From a bacterium (lineage in GTDB: Bacteria > Patescibacteriota > Saccharimonadia > Saccharimonadales > Saccharimonadaceae), in NCBI GenBank assembly GCA_020626475.1, contig JAHKZT010000018.1, positions 1 through 11,161 on the forward strand: 11,161 nucleotides of DNA, in the 5' to 3' direction. Under the pieces are notes generated by a model. The model was not told where the DNA came from. It did no database searches and saw only the letters and a program-made list of their open reading frames with translations. This document shows, piece by piece, positions 2,516 through 10,955 of the stretch (its first letter is position 1; each line of letters opens with the position of its first letter). Made by a program: the position numbers and the translations under genes.

Positions 2516-2875
2516 ATGATGATGGATAAGAATGTTGCAAGAAGAATGTCGGAAGCGAACGCTCTTGGCATGAGCGTAGATCAGTTCTCCGTTGGAGATC
2601 TCGAAGAGCTTGAAGCTATTCATGAGGTTTACAATGATGAAGAACAGAGGCTTATAGACGCAATGGCGGATTCGCTGATTGCGCTCTATGAACTTGGAGA
2701 CTGTTCGCCAGCTAGGAGCACGGATGCGCGTGAGTTTGGCAACATGATTGACGAGCTCTGCGAAGCAAAGACTTCCGAAGAGTATGACATAACGCTTGGC
2801 TGCTATGGCGACCTTGGTCGCAATAAGGCTGTTCAGGCTTATGTGGCTTTCAAGAAGTCAAAGCTTTCTGCTTAA
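2516..2875 (+). CDS. Hypothetical acidic 119-aa protein
   Basis: I do not recognise this protein. It is small, rich in Asp and Glu, likely mostly helical, with no signal peptide and no membrane segment. Acidic helices span about 26-60, and a lysine-containing C-terminal tail (about 103-117) follows. Three Cys (63, 82, 96) form no CxxC motif. The gene opens with three consecutive ATG codons; GAGGTG (2506-2511) is only 4 nt before the first, so the second (2519) or third (2522) may be used. It is a single-gene unit with a perfect consensus promoter, a structured leader and its own terminator, which suggests high or tightly controlled expression. It faces a convergent unknown gene that uses a near-identical promoter, so the two may be co-regulated; that is inference. 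Confidence 0.8.
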   Translation: MMMDKNVARRMSEANALGMSVDQFSVGDLEELEAIHEVYNDEEQRLIDAMADSLIALYELGDCSPARSTDAREFGNMIDELCEAKTSEEYDITLGCYGDLGRNKAVQAYVAFKKSKLSA

Positions 2876-2902: not shown

Positions 2903-2931
2903 GTCCCCGACATCTAGTCGGGGACTTTTTT
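2903..2931. terminator. Bidirectional intrinsic terminator
   Basis: GTCCCCGAC (2903-2911) pairs perfectly with GTCGGGGAC (2917-2925) around a 5-nt loop and is followed by six T on the plus strand. On the minus strand the stem is followed by AATTTTTATT, so it probably also ends the convergent gene, whose stop codon lies at its edge (2930-2932). Confidence 0.92.
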
Positions 2932-3565
2932 AGTTATTGCCATTGTCGTCGTCGCTGTTCGTCAGGCGCACCACTTTCGTGGGCTCGTTGTTCCGACGAA
3001 TAACTTCAGCTTTCATGGAGTCGAAGATGATCTCGTCTGCGACTTCAGAGCGTCCAAGCTCAGAGTCGTAAGGAAGATAGTTGTATGTAACTTCCCAGAG
3101 AGTCTCGTCGACTTTTGCGTTGATTACGCCCAGTGCGTACAGCACGAAAGCGGCAAGCTTCAGACCCTTTTTGGGGGTCGCTGCATGGTCATACCAACCA
3201 CAACCGATATACCCATCTTTGCAGGAGACGAACACCATTGCGTATTCGTCTTCTTTTGATTGATATATCATAGTCGGAGAAGATATATATGCGGAAGCTT
3301 TGTCCTTGGTGCTGTCGAGCTTCGATGCGAGTTTGATTTGTTTTTGTCTAAGCTCATGTGCGTTCTCAACAGCTCCGGTGGGCACGTAACCTCTCGCAAG
3401 CTCTGTTGAGCTTAGCTTCGTATAGTGTTTTACGATATAGAGGTCGGTGCCTACGCCTCTGGCGTGTTCAAAATACTTGCCAATCGTTATAGGCAGCACT
3501 TTGTTATATCCGTCAACTTTCTTGAAAGAGAAGCCGGACGGAATTAGCTTATAAATCTCTGCCAT
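2930..3565 (-). CDS. Hypothetical 211-aa protein
   Basis: I do not recognise this family. Start at MAEIYK (ATG 3565-3563) because GGGAGGTG lies 7 nt upstream; the upstream in-frame ATG at 3586 precedes that site and is unlikely. The product appears soluble: no signal peptide and no clear membrane segment, though 140-154 (LKLAAFVLYALGVIN in the longer frame) is hydrophobic. The middle has a segment with two Cys and aromatic residues (VSCKDGYIGCGWYDHA), and the C-terminus is an acidic, Asn-rich tail (SDDDNGNN). It has its own near-perfect promoter and a leader of about 70 nt, and shares a terminator with the convergent 119-aa gene. Function is unknown; a role paired with its neighbours is speculation. 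Confidence 0.85.
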   Translation of the reverse strand: MAEIYKLIPSGFSFKKVDGYNKVLPITIGKYFEHARGVGTDLYIVKHYTKLSSTELARGYVPTGAVENAHELRQKQIKLASKLDSTKDKASAYISSPTMIYQSKEDEYAMVFVSCKDGYIGCGWYDHAATPKKGLKLAAFVLYALGVINAKVDETLWEVTYNYLPYDSELGRSEVADEIIFDSMKAEVIRRNNEPTKVVRLTNSDDDNGNN

Positions 3566-3641
3566 ATAAATACACCTCCCTTTCATGTGTCAATGGCCAT
3601 TAAGGTCCAAAAACTGGCCCGTGAGGACAGTTATCTTGGTC

Positions 3642-4938: not shown

Positions 4939-4971
4939 AAAAATATCTCCTCAATCGAGGAGATATTTTTT
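4937..4971. terminator. Bidirectional intrinsic terminator
   Basis: ATATCTCCTC (4943-4952) pairs with GAGGAGATAT (4957-4966) around a 4-nt loop, with an A-run on the left and a T-run on the right, so it can act in both directions. It ends the mscL operon and the convergent membrane-protein gene, whose stop codon (4970-4972) overlaps the T-run. Confidence 0.92.
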
Positions 4972-5587
4972 AGTGGCTTTCTGACCAAGTATTGAAGTTT
5001 TCTTCTAGGACAGTAAGGTCGGCGATAGATTTATTGATGAGGTTTGCGTAAGCTTGGCTATTGGCCTTTTTGAGAGATTCTTGCTCATATTGAATGAGAG
5101 TTGAAATCTGGTAGAGCGTCTCTGAGGCGAAAGTGCGGTCGAGTGTGCCGGCGAGGACGGCGTTTTCTAGAGCGGATGTGTAGCTTGAGAAGCTAGCGCT
5201 TTCAGCAGTAGAGACCTCTTTGCTGATGGCACCGGTATTAACGCCAGTAGTACTGATAACACCCGATAGATCGTTGCTGAAGGTAAGAAGAGTCTGGTAT
5301 AGGGTACTCGCATAAGAGCGTAAATCAGAATTGCGAAGAAGCTGGGAATATTTCTTGAGTGGCGCATTCGTCTTGTTGTCGGCTAGATTGGCGACGCGAA
5401 GATAGACGCGCTCGTGAGTTTGCGTAACCTTTGCATTACTACTGCTAACGACGCTACCAACGATAATCATAGTGATGAGCATCACGACGCCGGCGGCAAT
5501 TAGCTTGATGAGCATTGGGGTAAAAATAGGACCCGATTTGACTTTGCCTTTGACGGCGATTTGATCAAGATAAGCTTTATTATCCAT
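4970..5587 (-). CDS. Hypothetical single-pass membrane protein
   Basis: No family recognised. The 205-aa product has a short basic cytoplasmic N-terminus (Lys 13, 15, 17), one strongly hydrophobic helix (about 23-47), and a Ser/Thr/Ala-rich, mostly helical domain (about 50-205) expected outside the membrane by the positive-inside rule. There is no cleavage site or lipobox, so it is probably membrane anchored. Promoter: TATAAT (minus strand, 5604-5599) with a TGT just before it forms an extended -10, leaving only 11 nt to the ATG, so the message has an almost absent leader and no Shine-Dalgarno sequence. It is divergent from dnaG and convergent with the mscL operon. The function is unknown. 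Confidence 0.85.
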   Translation of the reverse strand: MDNKAYLDQIAVKGKVKSGPIFTPMLIKLIAAGVVMLITMIIVGSVVSSSNAKVTQTHERVYLRVANLADNKTNAPLKKYSQLLRNSDLRSYASTLYQTLLTFSNDLSGVISTTGVNTGAISKEVSTAESASFSSYTSALENAVLAGTLDRTFASETLYQISTLIQYEQESLKKANSQAYANLINKSIADLTVLEENFNTWSESH

Positions 5588-5607: not shown

Positions 5608-5672
5608 TAAGCGGAAAGAAAAATAATCAATAAGACTAAGGGGTGTCGTTATTATTTTGGTTTTATATGGGG

Positions 5673-5684: not shown

Positions 5685-7307
5685 ATGGAGGATGCCAAAG
5701 AGGAAATTCGGGCGCGGTTAGCAGTTGAAGATGTGATTGGGCAATACATCGAGCTGAAGCGTGCCGGCAGAAATTTCAAAGGGCACTCACCTTGGGGGAC
5801 GGACAAGACGCCGAGTTTTATGGTTTCGCCAGAGAAGGGAATTTGGCATGATTTTTCGAGCAACAAGGGTGGCGACATCTTCACTTTTGTGATGGAAATG
5901 GAGGGGATTACTTTTCGCGAGGCGCTCGAGAAGCTCGCGCAGCAGGCTGGTGTTGAGCTGAAGCGCTATTCTGGCGACGACAGGAAGATGGCGGAGTATA
6001 AGGCACGTCTGTATGAAGCTTTGGAGCTTGCAACGAAATATTTTCAGTTCTGTCTAACGAAGAATAAGGCTGTGATGAACTATGTGTTCTATAAGAGAAA
6101 TCTTAATAAAAACACGGTCGAGAAGTTTCGGATTGGCTATGCACCAAAGTCGGGTAGGGCGCTTGTTGATTTTTTGACGAAGCGTGGCTTTACGAAGAAG
6201 GAAATTGAGGATGCCGGTCTCGTAAATCGCTTTGGGGGCGACTTATTTAAGGGGCGCATGACGGTGCCTTTGATGGACGTGTCTGGGCGTGTGATTGGTT
6301 TTACGGCGCGCATTATCGAAAAAGACGAGAACTCGCCAAAGTATCTCAATACGCCGGAGACTTTGCTCTATAACAAAGGGCGTCATATTTTCGGCCTGAG
6401 CCAGGCAAAAGACGCGATTCGTCGCTCGGAATTTGTGGTGGTCGTAGAAGGAAATATGGATGTGATTTCTTCACATCAGGCGGGGGTTTGTGAGGCAGTC
6501 GCGACGGCTGGTACGGCGATGACGGAAATGCATTTGAAGAGTTTTTCACGTATGACGAACGATATTCGTTTGGCTTACGATGGCGATGAGGCAGGCGTAC
6601 GCGCAGCGGAACGAGCGATTTCGATGGCGTCGAAATTCGGCATCTATCTCTCGGTGATCGACGATTATCATGGCTGCAAGGACGCGGATGAATTGATCCA
6701 GAAAGACCCGAAATTATGGCAGGCGGCAACGCAAAGTTATCGTCCGGCACTCGAGTGGTTGCTCGAAAAATACGAAGGTAAGTTTAATTTGAAGACCGAA
6801 AAAGGCTTTGCGGAATATGCGACAACAGCAAAGGAATTGATAGACGATGTTGAGGACGCGGTCTTGCGTGAGAAATACGAGCGCATTGTGAGCGATAGGC
6901 TTGGAATTTCGCTTGAAGCATTTCGTGCGAAGAAAGTTGCGAAGCCGGAAAAGAAGATGAAGAAAAATGTCGCCATAAAAGGTGAAAAGGCGGAGATTTC
7001 GCGTGCCGAGAAAAACTTGGCGGCGCTTGTAAAAAATGGTCCGGTTGAACTAGAAGATTTTGAGCCAATGGCGGGGCTTGATGATGATGAATTGGCGCTA
7101 ATCTTTGATGAATTGTATGCGAAACTCGACAAGGTTGGACGAGAGCGGGAAGCGAAAAATTTGCTGAAAAAAGTATTACGTGAGCGTTTGGAGGCCGAGC
7201 GGGCGAACTTGGCAGAAGAGATTCGTAAAGCCGAAGAAGCCGAGGATGATGATAAGGTCGATGAATTGCTGCGCGAAATGCAGAAAATAGATAAAAAATT
7301 AGGCTAG
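5685..7307 (+). CDS. dnaG: DNA primase DnaG with a ligand-less zinc domain
   Basis: Makes the RNA primers for chromosome replication, working with the replicative helicase. The 540-aa protein shows the N-terminal zinc-ribbon (CHC2) region (about 1-95), the RNA polymerase core with YLNTPETLLYNKGR (220-233), and the TOPRIM domain with EGNMDV (255-260) and the metal-binding YDGDEAG (298-304). A charged, coiled C-terminal part (about 400-540) is shorter and less conserved than the usual helicase-binding domain. The zinc domain aligns well by its KTPSFMVSPEKG core (41-52) and KGGDIFTF (61-68), but the four expected ligands Cys, His, Cys, Cys are Ser35, Gly38, Asp56 and Ser59. The message is probably leaderless. 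rpoD follows 135 nt downstream, as in the classical macromolecular-synthesis operon. Confidence 0.95.
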   Translation: MEDAKEEIRARLAVEDVIGQYIELKRAGRNFKGHSPWGTDKTPSFMVSPEKGIWHDFSSNKGGDIFTFVMEMEGITFREALEKLAQQAGVELKRYSGDDRKMAEYKARLYEALELATKYFQFCLTKNKAVMNYVFYKRNLNKNTVEKFRIGYAPKSGRALVDFLTKRGFTKKEIEDAGLVNRFGGDLFKGRMTVPLMDVSGRVIGFTARIIEKDENSPKYLNTPETLLYNKGRHIFGLSQAKDAIRRSEFVVVVEGNMDVISSHQAGVCEAVATAGTAMTEMHLKSFSRMTNDIRLAYDGDEAGVRAAERAISMASKFGIYLSVIDDYHGCKDADELIQKDPKLWQAATQSYRPALEWLLEKYEGKFNLKTEKGFAEYATTAKELIDDVEDAVLREKYERIVSDRLGISLEAFRAKKVAKPEKKMKKNVAIKGEKAEISRAEKNLAALVKNGPVELEDFEPMAGLDDDELALIFDELYAKLDKVGREREAKNLLKKVLRERLEAERANLAEEIRKAEEAEDDDKVDELLREMQKIDKKLG

Positions 7308-7442: not shown

Positions 7443-8420
7443 ATGGACGAAGAAGAAAGAGATGATTTGAGGCTCGACAGCGATTATACTGACGAACCGA
7501 GCTTTGATGATATGGACGAAGAATCCGAAGAGGATTTGAATATTGATTTTGATGCGACGAGCTATGACGAAGCCTCTGATGACTCAGTAAAGCTATACCT
7601 TCGCGAGATTGGTAAAATTCCGCTACTTAGCCAGGAAGAAGAATACGAATTGGCGCAGAAGATTATTAACGGTACGCCAAAAGAGCAGAAGCGCGCTAAG
7701 GATAAAATGGCCGAATCAAATATGCGTTTGGTTGTTTCGATTGCAAAACGTTATTCTGGCCGCGGTTTGGATTTCTTGGATTTGATTCAGGAAGGTAATA
7801 CCGGCTTGCTTCGCGCCGTCGAGAAGTTTGATCCGGATAAAGGCTTTAAGTTTTCGACTTATGCGACTTGGTGGATTCGCCAGGCGATTACGCGTGCAAT
7901 TGCCGACCAGGCACGTACGATTCGTATTCCAGTTCATATGGTTGAGACGATTAACAAGGTGCTTCGCACGCAGCGTCGTTTGACGCAGGAACTCAATCGT
8001 GAGCCATCGACTGAGGAAATCGCAAAGGCGATGGGTATGGAGCCGGAGAAGATTGAATATGTTATGAAGATTAAGCAGGATATTGCTTCACTTGATGCTT
8101 CTGTTGGCCGTGACGGTGATGATGACGATTCTTCGCTCGGCGATTTCATCGAAGATGAAGACCGTGTATCGCCAGAAGATTCCGCAGCTACGCAGTTGCT
8201 AAAAGAGCAGATTGCTGCAATTCTTTCGACTTTGAGCGATCGCGAGCAGAAGATTATTAAGATGCGCTTCGGTATTGGTGGCGGCAAGAGTCATACGCTC
8301 GAGGAAGTTGGCGCCGAATTCTCAGTTACGCGCGAACGTATTCGTCAGATTGAGGCGAAGGCTTTGACGAAGCTTCGCAAAAATAAAGATACGAAGAAGC
8401 TGCACGAGTACTTGAAATAG
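7443..8420 (+). CDS. rpoD: Primary sigma factor (sigma-70 family)
   Basis: Housekeeping sigma subunit that directs RNA polymerase to promoters such as those seen in this window. In the 325-aa protein a short, very acidic N-terminus (1-47) stands in place of a full region 1.1. Region 1.2 follows ([16 protein letters not shown], 48-63), region 2 (about 90-165) with [18 protein letters not shown] and the -10-reading [16 protein letters not shown] (138-153), region 3 (about 166-245), and region 4 (about 262-325) with its helix-turn-helix [20 protein letters not shown] (285-304). There is no non-conserved insert between 1.2 and 2.1, so it is a compact group 1-like sigma. AAGGGGA lies very close to the ATG. 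It sits downstream of dnaG in the common gene order; a terminator follows. Confidence 0.95.
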
Positions 8421-8564: not shown

Positions 8565-8593
8565 GTAGGGTGGAGTAAAAGCATCAAAATTGT

Positions 8594-8622
8594 TTGCTTT
8601 TTTGAAAAAGCTTAAGTATAAT
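8594..8622 (+). promoter_or_regulatory. pilT promoter with internal palindrome
   Basis: TTGCTT (8594-8599), a 17-nt spacer and TATAAT (8617-8622). The ATG of pilT is 6 nt beyond the -10 box, so the message is probably leaderless. A perfect inverted repeat, GCTTTTT-TG-AAAAAGC (8596-8611), covers the -35 and half of the spacer and could be an operator; it is followed by CTTAAG. Confidence 0.75.
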
Positions 8623-8628
8623 GGTGGT

Positions 8629-9759
8629 ATGGAACAAAGTGGGCAGGTAGGTGTTGCAGCTCCAAGCGTAACTCCGAATACTAATGCAGCAAACACCGCA
8701 AACATTCGCATCGAGAATCTTCTCGAGGAGTGTGTGCGCACTAAAGCAAGCGACCTTCATTTACAGGTCGGTTTGCCTCCGATTTTGCGTATTGATGGTG
8801 CTTTGCAGCCGGTTTCGGGTTATAACGCGCTTGATGAAGCGACGGTTGAAAAACTCGTTTTCGCAACACTAGAAGAAGATCAAAAACAGATTTTAATTAA
8901 AGATAAAGAGTTCGATTATTCGTTCTCGTTTGGCGATTTAGGTCGTTTCCGTGTGAATGCTTTCCACGAGAAGGGCAATCTTGCGGCGGCATTTCGTCTA
9001 ATTCCAAATACGATTCAGACAATTAATGAGCTTGGTATGCCGCCAGTAGTAACGAGTTTCGCAGATTTTCCGCGTGGTCTCGTGCTTGTGACTGGTCCTA
9101 CCGGTTCTGGTAAATCTACGACGCTTGCAGCGCTAGTTGATAAGATTAACACCGAAAAAGCTGCACATATTATCACGATTGAGGATCCAATTGAGTTTAC
9201 GCACAAGTCTAAGCGCTCGGTTGTGGTTCAGCGTGAAGTCCACTATGATACTTATTCCTTCTCGGCCGCTCTTCGTAGCGCGCTACGTGAAGATCCTGAC
9301 GTTGTGCTTATTGGTGAGATGCGCGACCTTGAGACGATTTCGGCCGCGATTACGATTGCGGAAACTGGTCACTTGGTCTTCGCGACACTTCACACCAACT
9401 CTGCTTCTCAGAGTATTGATCGTATGATTGACGTTTTCCCACCACATCAGCAGCCACAGGTACGCTCGCAGCTTGCGAATATCTTGCAGGCAATTTGTGC
9501 ACAGCGTCTCGTTCCGGCAATTGGCGGTGGCCGTGTTGTCGCAGCGGAAATTCTAGTTGCTAACCCGGCAGTTCGCTCGGTTATTCGCGAGGGTAAGACG
9601 CATCAGCTCGATACGATTATTCAGACTGGTGCCGATCAGGGCATGCAGACGATGGATCGCACACTTGTGAAACTCGTTCAGACTGGCGTTATTACGCATG
9701 ATGCCGCACGTGAATATGCCGTTGATTTGCAAGAATTTGAAAGGTTGTCTCGCGGATGA
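8629..9759 (+). CDS. pilT: Type IV pilus retraction ATPase PilT
   Basis: Cytoplasmic hexameric ATPase that powers pilus disassembly, producing twitching motility, and in some bacteria DNA uptake. The 376-aa length is slightly above the usual 345-370 because of a disordered N-terminal tail rich in Ala, Asn and Thr (about 1-26). Motifs are in order: Walker A GPTGSGKST (156-164), Asp box ITIEDPIEF (182-190), Walker B VVLIGEMRD (225-233), His box TGHLVFATLHTNSA (246-259), and AVRSVIREGKT (314-324). The last is equivalent to the AIRNLIRE motif characteristic of PilT and separates it from the assembly ATPase PilB; PilB's tetracysteine motif is absent. The start is the ATG 6 nt after the -10 box; an in-frame TTG at 8590 lies upstream of the -35 and is rejected. 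It overlaps pilC by 4 nt (ATGA). Confidence 0.93.
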   Translation: MEQSGQVGVAAPSVTPNTNAANTANIRIENLLEECVRTKASDLHLQVGLPPILRIDGALQPVSGYNALDEATVEKLVFATLEEDQKQILIKDKEFDYSFSFGDLGRFRVNAFHEKGNLAAAFRLIPNTIQTINELGMPPVVTSFADFPRGLVLVTGPTGSGKSTTLAALVDKINTEKAAHIITIEDPIEFTHKSKRSVVVQREVHYDTYSFSAALRSALREDPDVVLIGEMRDLETISAAITIAETGHLVFATLHTNSASQSIDRMIDVFPPHQQPQVRSQLANILQAICAQRLVPAIGGGRVVAAEILVANPAVRSVIREGKTHQLDTIIQTGADQGMQTMDRTLVKLVQTGVITHDAAREYAVDLQEFERLSRG

Positions 9760-10955
9760 AACGTTTTGTCTACAAAGCAAAAGAGCAGAGTACCGGCAAA
9801 ATTATTAAAGGTACGATTCAGGCGGAAACTGAACGTATTGCCGGTAAACTTTTGGTGGACCGCGGCTATGTGCCAGAGTCGCTAAAGGAAGAAGGCCAGA
9901 GCTTTGGAGATAAGTTAAATAAAGTTACCGCAAAAGATCGCATTAACTTTACGCGTCAGTTTGCTACGCTAGTTGGTGCCGGTTTGCCGATTGCGCAGTC
10001 GCTTCGTACGGTTTCTGAGCAAACTCAGAATAAGGCGATGAAGGCTGTTATTGAAGAGATTTTGGCAGAAATTGAAGCGGGTCATAGCCTCGGTGACGCA
10101 TTTGCAAAACACCCAGAAGTATTCAATAACGTTTACCTTTCTTTGGTTCGTGCTGGTGAAGTTTCTGGTACGCTTGATGATTCTTTGAAGCGTATTGCTA
10201 TGCAGGAAGAAAAAGATGCGAAGATGATGAGCAGTATTAAAGGCGCGATGGTGATGCCGATTATTACGCTCTTAGTAATCTTCGTAGTCTTTCTTTATAT
10301 GATGCTCGAAGTCGTTCCGCAGGTTGAAGGCCTCTATGAAGATCTCGGAGAAGAGCTTCCGGCTCTAACGCAGGCTTTTGTAGCGATTAAGGATTTCATT
10401 ATCAACTTCTGGTGGTTGGCGTTGTTGATTTTGGCTGGTATTGTCGCCGGTTTCTTGCAGTGGCGTAGGACGGTTGGTGGTCAGCGTGCATTGGCGAAGT
10501 TCAAATTGAATGTACCGATGTTCAATGGTTTGTTCCGCATGCTTTATATGGCACGTTTGGCACGCATTTCTCAGATTCTTCTTTCGACCGGTGTCGCCGT
10601 GCTCGATACGCTCCAGATTGCGGGCGATGCAACAAATAACTTGATCGTGATTGATGAAGTTCATGATGCGATGGACAAAGTTCAAGCAGGCAAGCCGATG
10701 TCTGAAGCGTTGCGCGATCATGAATATATCTTACCTTTAGTCTATCAGATGGCGGCAATTGGCGAGCAGTCTGGTAAGATGGACGAAATGTTGGGGAAGG
10801 CGGCGCAGGTCTTTGAGGATGATTTGGACGAGAAAGTCGCTGCAATTAGCTCGGCGATTGAGCCAGTGATGATGATTCTTTTGGCGATTATGGCCGGTGG
10901 TCTCGTTGGCGGTATCTTATTCCCAATCTACGCTCTAGTGAATACGATTGCATAA
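9756..10955 (+). CDS. pilC: Type IV pilus inner-membrane platform protein PilC
   Basis: Polytopic inner-membrane protein of the PilC/GspF family, on which the ATPases act to add or remove pilin subunits. The 399-aa product has a short cytoplasmic N-terminus with the typical FVYKAKEQSTGKIIKG opening (4-19). The first GspF domain (about 65-188) ends in TM1 (about 166-188) and is followed by TM2 (about 217-236). The second GspF domain (about 265-390) carries the family EQSGKMDEML (337-346) and ends in TM3 (about 368-395). The two halves show the usual internal similarity (VRAGEVSGTLDDSL versus IGEQSGKMDEML). Translation is coupled to pilT by the ATGA overlap. No terminator follows; a new promoter lies just downstream. 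Confidence 0.95.
   Translation: MKRFVYKAKEQSTGKIIKGTIQAETERIAGKLLVDRGYVPESLKEEGQSFGDKLNKVTAKDRINFTRQFATLVGAGLPIAQSLRTVSEQTQNKAMKAVIEEILAEIEAGHSLGDAFAKHPEVFNNVYLSLVRAGEVSGTLDDSLKRIAMQEEKDAKMMSSIKGAMVMPIITLLVIFVVFLYMMLEVVPQVEGLYEDLGEELPALTQAFVAIKDFIINFWWLALLILAGIVAGFLQWRRTVGGQRALAKFKLNVPMFNGLFRMLYMARLARISQILLSTGVAVLDTLQIAGDATNNLIVIDEVHDAMDKVQAGKPMSEALRDHEYILPLVYQMAAIGEQSGKMDEMLGKAAQVFEDDLDEKVAAISSAIEPVMMILLAIMAGGLVGGILFPIYALVNTIA

Follow-up and report, generated by a model that had tools for sequence, protein, structure and literature searches.

A DnaG primase of Saccharimonadaceae with a probably metal-free CHC2 domain, and similar ligand replacements in other bacteria

Introduction

Can a bacterial primase keep working if its zinc ribbon has lost every one of its metal ligands? 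This question is raised by a stretch of 11,161 nucleotides (GenBank assembly GCA_020626475.1, contig JAHKZT010000018.1; hereafter the window, meaning the whole stretch analysed) from a member of the Saccharimonadaceae, which is contig C90 of an 808-kb Saccharibacteria genome (82% complete). The window carries dnaG, the gene for DNA primase, and a first-pass annotation of the sequence stated that the Cys, His, Cys and Cys ligands of the CHC2 domain are all replaced. In known primases the ribbon is reported to determine where priming starts (PMC6163395, PMC5204125), and the former paper calls the function of the zinc site in primase unresolved. Sequence comparison shows that the ligand loss is lineage-wide, recurrent and under strong selection; together with structure prediction, it points to a functional, metal-free ribbon as the most likely reading.

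Results

Ligand replacement in an otherwise intact primase

The ligand columns were placed by alignment to the Aquifex DnaG (2AU3) and then to 77 further loci. These alignments confirmed the replacement of all four ligands, by Ser35, Gly38, Asp56 and Ser59 (Table 1); the ribbon contains no Cys at all, and the Cys-His-Cys-Cys set that defines CHC2 (PF01807) is absent. The span annotated initially (5784-5888) corresponds to residues 34-68. The landmarks KTPSF, VSPEK and GGD..F are retained in the ribbon, and its positions 34, 37, 40-45, 47, 57, 62 and 63 agree with those of primases having the complete ligand set (CHCC rows). The rest of the enzyme was said to be intact and free of frameshifts, which also holds: the frame of 540 codons is unbroken from the ATG at 5685 (a GTG start at 5643, given by the open reading frame caller, lies upstream, and the relatives align from 5685), Pfam detects the CHC2 ribbon (PF01807), DNAG_N, Toprim and DnaB_bind, and the TOPRIM acids E255, D299 and D301, which we take to be the catalytic residues of the family, are invariant in an alignment (A1) of 97 rows. 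The C-terminal helicase-binding domain is putative, with PF10410 matching residues 357-411. The identity as DnaG is upheld by profile, fold and catalytic residues, and it is the ligand feature giving the CHC2 finger its name that fails.

Distribution of zinc-less DnaG

Apart from the window's own copy, the first survey covered 77 loci, 42 of them from Saccharibacteria according to their titles or, for L036, to the position in the tree. The latter locus (JAITNW010000003.1) is titled Nomurabacteria, but its DnaG is 65% identical and falls inside the Saccharibacteria clade; it probably represents a misnamed bin. One Saccharibacteria row (L009) is broken by a frame change inside the ribbon just past the SPWG motif and was dropped, and the ligands are absent in all 41 unbroken loci. 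The replacement, suggested earlier to be lineage-wide, is fixed across the window's order, and an assembly error can be rejected, as so many relatives have it in common. Among the remaining 35 loci, 12 also lack the ligands (eight Chlorobi, three Spirochaetaceae, one Parcubacteria). Outside Saccharimonadia, 116 of 120 DnaG proteins sampled from Patescibacteria have CHCC, and the other four are zinc-less (SRDS in L205 and L220, STCT in L212, SKCT in L221). Within Saccharimonadia, where 30 of the 60 matching genomes of a class sample were read, 12 loci are CHCC and 18 zinc-less. The ligand loss is therefore not class-wide, the families f9, f10, f154, f156, f157 and f158 being CHCC; a search for ligand-bearing close relatives, which were to refute the original claim, found none in the order but several families in the class. 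We also read 30 loci each from Bacteroidota and Spirochaetota (out of 60 and 58 matching genomes, respectively), but as these rank highest against a zinc-less query, their proportions give no prevalence. Being fixed in the window's order and recurring elsewhere, the replacement exceeds chance.

All-or-none pattern

For the counts below we used 300 distinct DnaG rows, after removal of L234-L237 (other proteins or a fragment), L351 (wrong frame), the broken L009, 14 rows from genomes already present and eight identical rows. Three of the excluded loci (L234, L235, L236) are stand-alone CHC2 domains that have all of CHCC and lie next to the DnaG genes of other Patescibacteria (G049, G138, G124), perhaps primases of mobile elements.

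Four ligands are present in 194 rows, none in 78 and one in 28, and not a single row has two or three. The ligand kept in these 28 of the 106 zinc-less rows is Cys56 in 26 cases and His38 in two, namely in L288 (SHDT) and L290 (SHDA) from the Saccharimonadia families f159 and f155, respectively. As only the His of the site is left there, the cysteines may have been lost first, and these two proteins are a possible intermediate stage. Position 58 follows the state of the site as well: Gly58 is the rule in CHCC rows (186/195), whereas Ser is found in all zinc-less rows save four with Arg38. In the latter (L048, L205, L220, L301) Arg38 is invariably paired with Asp56 and Gly58, which suggests an Arg38-Asp56 salt bridge, because both residues replace ones that would share a zinc ion. 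The zinc site of primase may be an evolutionary toggle, switched as a whole in many bacterial lineages to a cluster of polar residues that binds no metal, following fixed rules (Ser at the first column; then Arg38-Asp56-Gly58, or Thr/Lys38-Cys56-Ser58, or any residue at 38 with Asp56-Ser58), with the template-reading domain still working; we see this generalization as evenly poised between true and false.

Number of origins

A core tree was calculated from the catalytic part (residues 101-409), the ribbon columns being excluded, for 97 rows including 39 zinc-less ones. It requires 10 changes between the zinc-bearing and the zinc-less state, a rough figure since the tree is a quick one with many weak branches. 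The changes fall in Chlorobi, Spirochaetaceae and several lineages of Patescibacteria, with one or two events inside Saccharimonadia. A starred branch unites Chlorobi (STCT/STCS) with zinc-bearing Ignavibacteria, and L220 and L221 group with the zinc-bearing L218 and L219. A more careful tree of 44 Saccharimonadia and eight outgroup rows has two zinc-less clades, and the approximately unbiased (AU) tests of a single origin in this class disagree: it is rejected only at the margin with the fuller sampling (34 zinc-less rows, p 0.0435) and not rejected with the sparser one (27 zinc-less rows, p 0.953). We further masked the ligand columns and position 58 in 15 rows and recorded the best match of each ribbon outside its own zinc-less group. 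For 12 rows (L048, L205, L220, L067, L062, L338, L050, L301, L288, L289, the window and L216) this match is CHCC, usually from the same large group. The all-or-none swap seems to have several independent origins among distantly related bacteria, so that this ancient domain may be able to serve priming without zinc.

Constraint and predicted fold

Of the parts of DnaG that were measured, the ribbon has the tightest constraint, with a median dN/dS of 0.018, a value that indicates strong purifying selection. Its predicted structure superposes on the zinc-bearing 1D0Q with 1.5 A over 97 residues at 50% identity, which agrees, at the level of prediction, with the earlier proposal of a stabilised metal-free fold.

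Second primase and other zinc proteins

All 13 zinc-less genomes searched have one PF01807 match each and no second CHC2 protein, so that a second, zinc-bearing DnaG was rejected. Zinc use was further examined in G335 (one contig of 845 kb, same family as the window) and G353 (same genus). Between these two genomes, cysteines are kept in UvrA (12/12), RadA (5/5), Fpg (3/3) and PriA (8/10, with all eight of its Cys pairs), and PriA of the window's own genome retains four Cys pairs. DnaJ lacks the entire Cys-rich zinc domain in the own genome (contig C46, L369:1096-1989, minus strand, 297 amino acids) and in G353 (C4:174342-175232, minus strand, 296 amino acids), whereas it is present in DnaJ of G335 (366 amino acids). 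As G335 combines a zinc-less DnaG with a zinc-type DnaJ, the two losses are separate; loss of zinc proteins is therefore piecemeal, and the primase change is the older one. For NrdR, G353 yields no reciprocal match, and several G335/G353 pairs have Cys pairs on one side only (e.g., G335 98902-100104, 496544-497599, 781009-782049).

Genomic context

The features of the locus are compiled in Table 1. A sigma-70 gene is the usual chromosomal neighbour of dnaG. Further downstream of dnaG-rpoD, type IV pilus genes (T2SSE ATPase, T2SSF) are located at 8590-10955 on the plus strand. The frames at 2930-3586 (minus), 4970-5587 (minus) and 2516-2875 (plus) have no Pfam match at E 0.001.

Table 1. Coordinates of dnaG, its domains and key residues, and the adjacent sigma factor gene in the window
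Feature	Position	Strand	Remarks
dnaG, DNA primase, 540 aa	5685..7304	+	TIGR01391, 364.3 bits (cut-off 283.6); matches to relatives begin at residue 1
Zinc-less CHC2 (DnaG zinc-ribbon) domain, residues 5-94	5697..5966	+	PF01807, 87.9 bits (cut-off 24.9); predicted fold similar to 1D0Q
Ligand column 1, Cys replaced by Ser35	5787..5789	+	Ser in 106/106 distinct zinc-less rows
Ligand column 2, His replaced by Gly38	5796..5798	+	No fixed residue in zinc-less rows (T, G, S, N, K or R and, rarely, H)
His55, residue preceding ligand column 3	5847..5849	+	Position of the His/Lys start-site effect in C. difficile primase (PMC5204125)
Ligand column 3, Cys replaced by Asp56	5850..5852	+	Zinc-less rows have Asp or Cys
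Ligand column 4, Cys replaced by Ser59	5859..5861	+	Zinc-less rows have Ser, Thr or Ala
RNA polymerase (TOPRIM) domain, about residues 105-405	5997..6899	+	PF08275 and Toprim families; fold matches 1DD9, 5GUJ, 4EDG
rpoD-type sigma-70 factor, directly 3' of dnaG	7443..8420	+	Sigma70 r1.2, r2, r3, r4

Discussion

A probable working, metal-free ribbon

In the favoured reading, the window's DnaG is the ordinary and apparently only replicative primase of the bacterium, with a ribbon converted from a zinc-held to a metal-free form. In the proposed structure no metal would be bound; hydrogen bonds of Ser35, Asp56, Ser58 and Ser59 would join the two knuckles, a part that the Arg38-Asp56 salt bridge may take in four other lineages. 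The ribbon would still choose where on the template priming begins, and His55 would occupy the specificity position. In the C. difficile primase, which trinucleotide is used depends in part on whether His or Lys precedes the third ligand (PMC5204125). Position 55 is His in the window and mostly His in Saccharimonadia, and by analogy the start sites of the window's primase would be those of the His type. That the ribbon works without metal, held by polar side chains, in an ordinary replicative primase is, from sequences and models, a probable reading. Several points weigh against it. The own genome is 82% complete, so that a further primase is possible there; dS was not computable for saturated pairs (2 of 105 pairs for the ribbon, 27 for the catalytic and 87 for the C-terminal part); AlphaFold probably saw 1D0Q and 2AU3, and a high score is therefore no proof of zinc-free stability; and for 4 of the 15 masked ribbons (L212, L221, L313 and, weakly, others) foreign zinc-less rows are among the nearest, such a row being the best match for the three named, so that transfer and convergence are not separable in these cases.

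Among the competing explanations, an economy of zinc (or cysteine) throughout a lineage of small host-dependent bacteria is unlikely but not far-fetched. It would account for the loss of the DnaJ domain in the window's genus, for a TopA with one Cys in G335 and G353, for ribosomal proteins L33 and S14 of G335 that appear Cys-free (judged by eye), and for a Cys content of 0.50% and 0.78% over 390 ortholog pairs. The part of the first-pass annotation that proposed zinc saving thus stands for DnaJ, but it does not extend to PriA, whose zinc ribbon is retained in three genomes, nor to UvrA, RadA and Fpg, and with these cysteines kept a general economy was rejected as the main cause. G335 has, moreover, lost the ligands of DnaG and not those of DnaJ. 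Almost all other Patescibacteria sampled are CHCC, and the change is not confined to epibionts: free-living Chlorobi, as well as some Spirochaetaceae, have lost CHCC too.

The ribbon might instead have changed its job, choosing start sites differently or less strictly or serving a new partner, with zinc loss as a by-product. The role of the ribbon in start-site choice and the Lys55 of Chlorobi rows, as opposed to the His55 prevailing in Saccharimonadia, speak for such a change, but the conserved landmarks and the dozen or so ribbon positions shared with CHCC rows make it quite improbable. A metal site built from other residues (His34, His55, Asp56 or others) is very unlikely. These three residues adjoin the former ligand site, both in the window and in its closest relatives, and His34 and His55 had been suggested as a replacement site; however, of the 106 distinct zinc-less rows only 36 have His34 (63 have Leu there), His55 is found in 79 and replaced by Lys or Tyr in 27, the domain remains conserved in rows without His34, and the window's ribbon offers no Cys. 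Decay towards a dispensable ribbon, as in animal Twinkle, is hardly credible, as the catalytic residues are intact and the ribbon is under the strongest constraint.

If the toggle is real, zinc is replaceable in template recognition, and such bacteria replicate without a zinc need at the primase. Zinc-free primases that evolved naturally and repeatedly, and that have zinc-bearing relatives among the sister families of their class, would allow the metal to be separated from the fold and the part of zinc in start-site choice to be asked directly, and the small set of replacement rules would be a ready test case for the loss of a metal site as a unit.

Comparison with known systems

We found no description of ligand-less bacterial DnaG in the open literature searched, other papers not being covered. 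The window's protein shares the fold and the KTPSF, VSPEK and GGD landmarks with the CHC2 domains of Geobacillus (1D0Q) and Aquifex (2AU3) primases, but differs from them in all four metal ligands. The zinc-less DnaG of Chlorobi and Spirochaetaceae (STCT/STCS) has the first Ser and the Ser/Thr at the fourth column in common with it and, in the two genomes searched, likewise stands as the only CHC2 protein; it keeps Cys56, has Thr38 and Ser58, and is of separate origin on the core tree. In animal Twinkle, a ribbon-type domain is reported without primase function and the primase is inactive, whereas the window's DnaG retains its catalytic acids. Makarova et al. are said to have described, in 2001, zinc-less 'C-minus' forms of ribosomal proteins (L31, L33, L36, S14). 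As in the window's DnaG, the ribbon ligands of these proteins were lost repeatedly and the protein was kept. However, C-minus forms commonly coexist with a C-plus paralogue and Zur control, whereas DnaG is a single gene for which no zinc paralogue was found, and its ribbon is a DNA-reading domain of the replisome.
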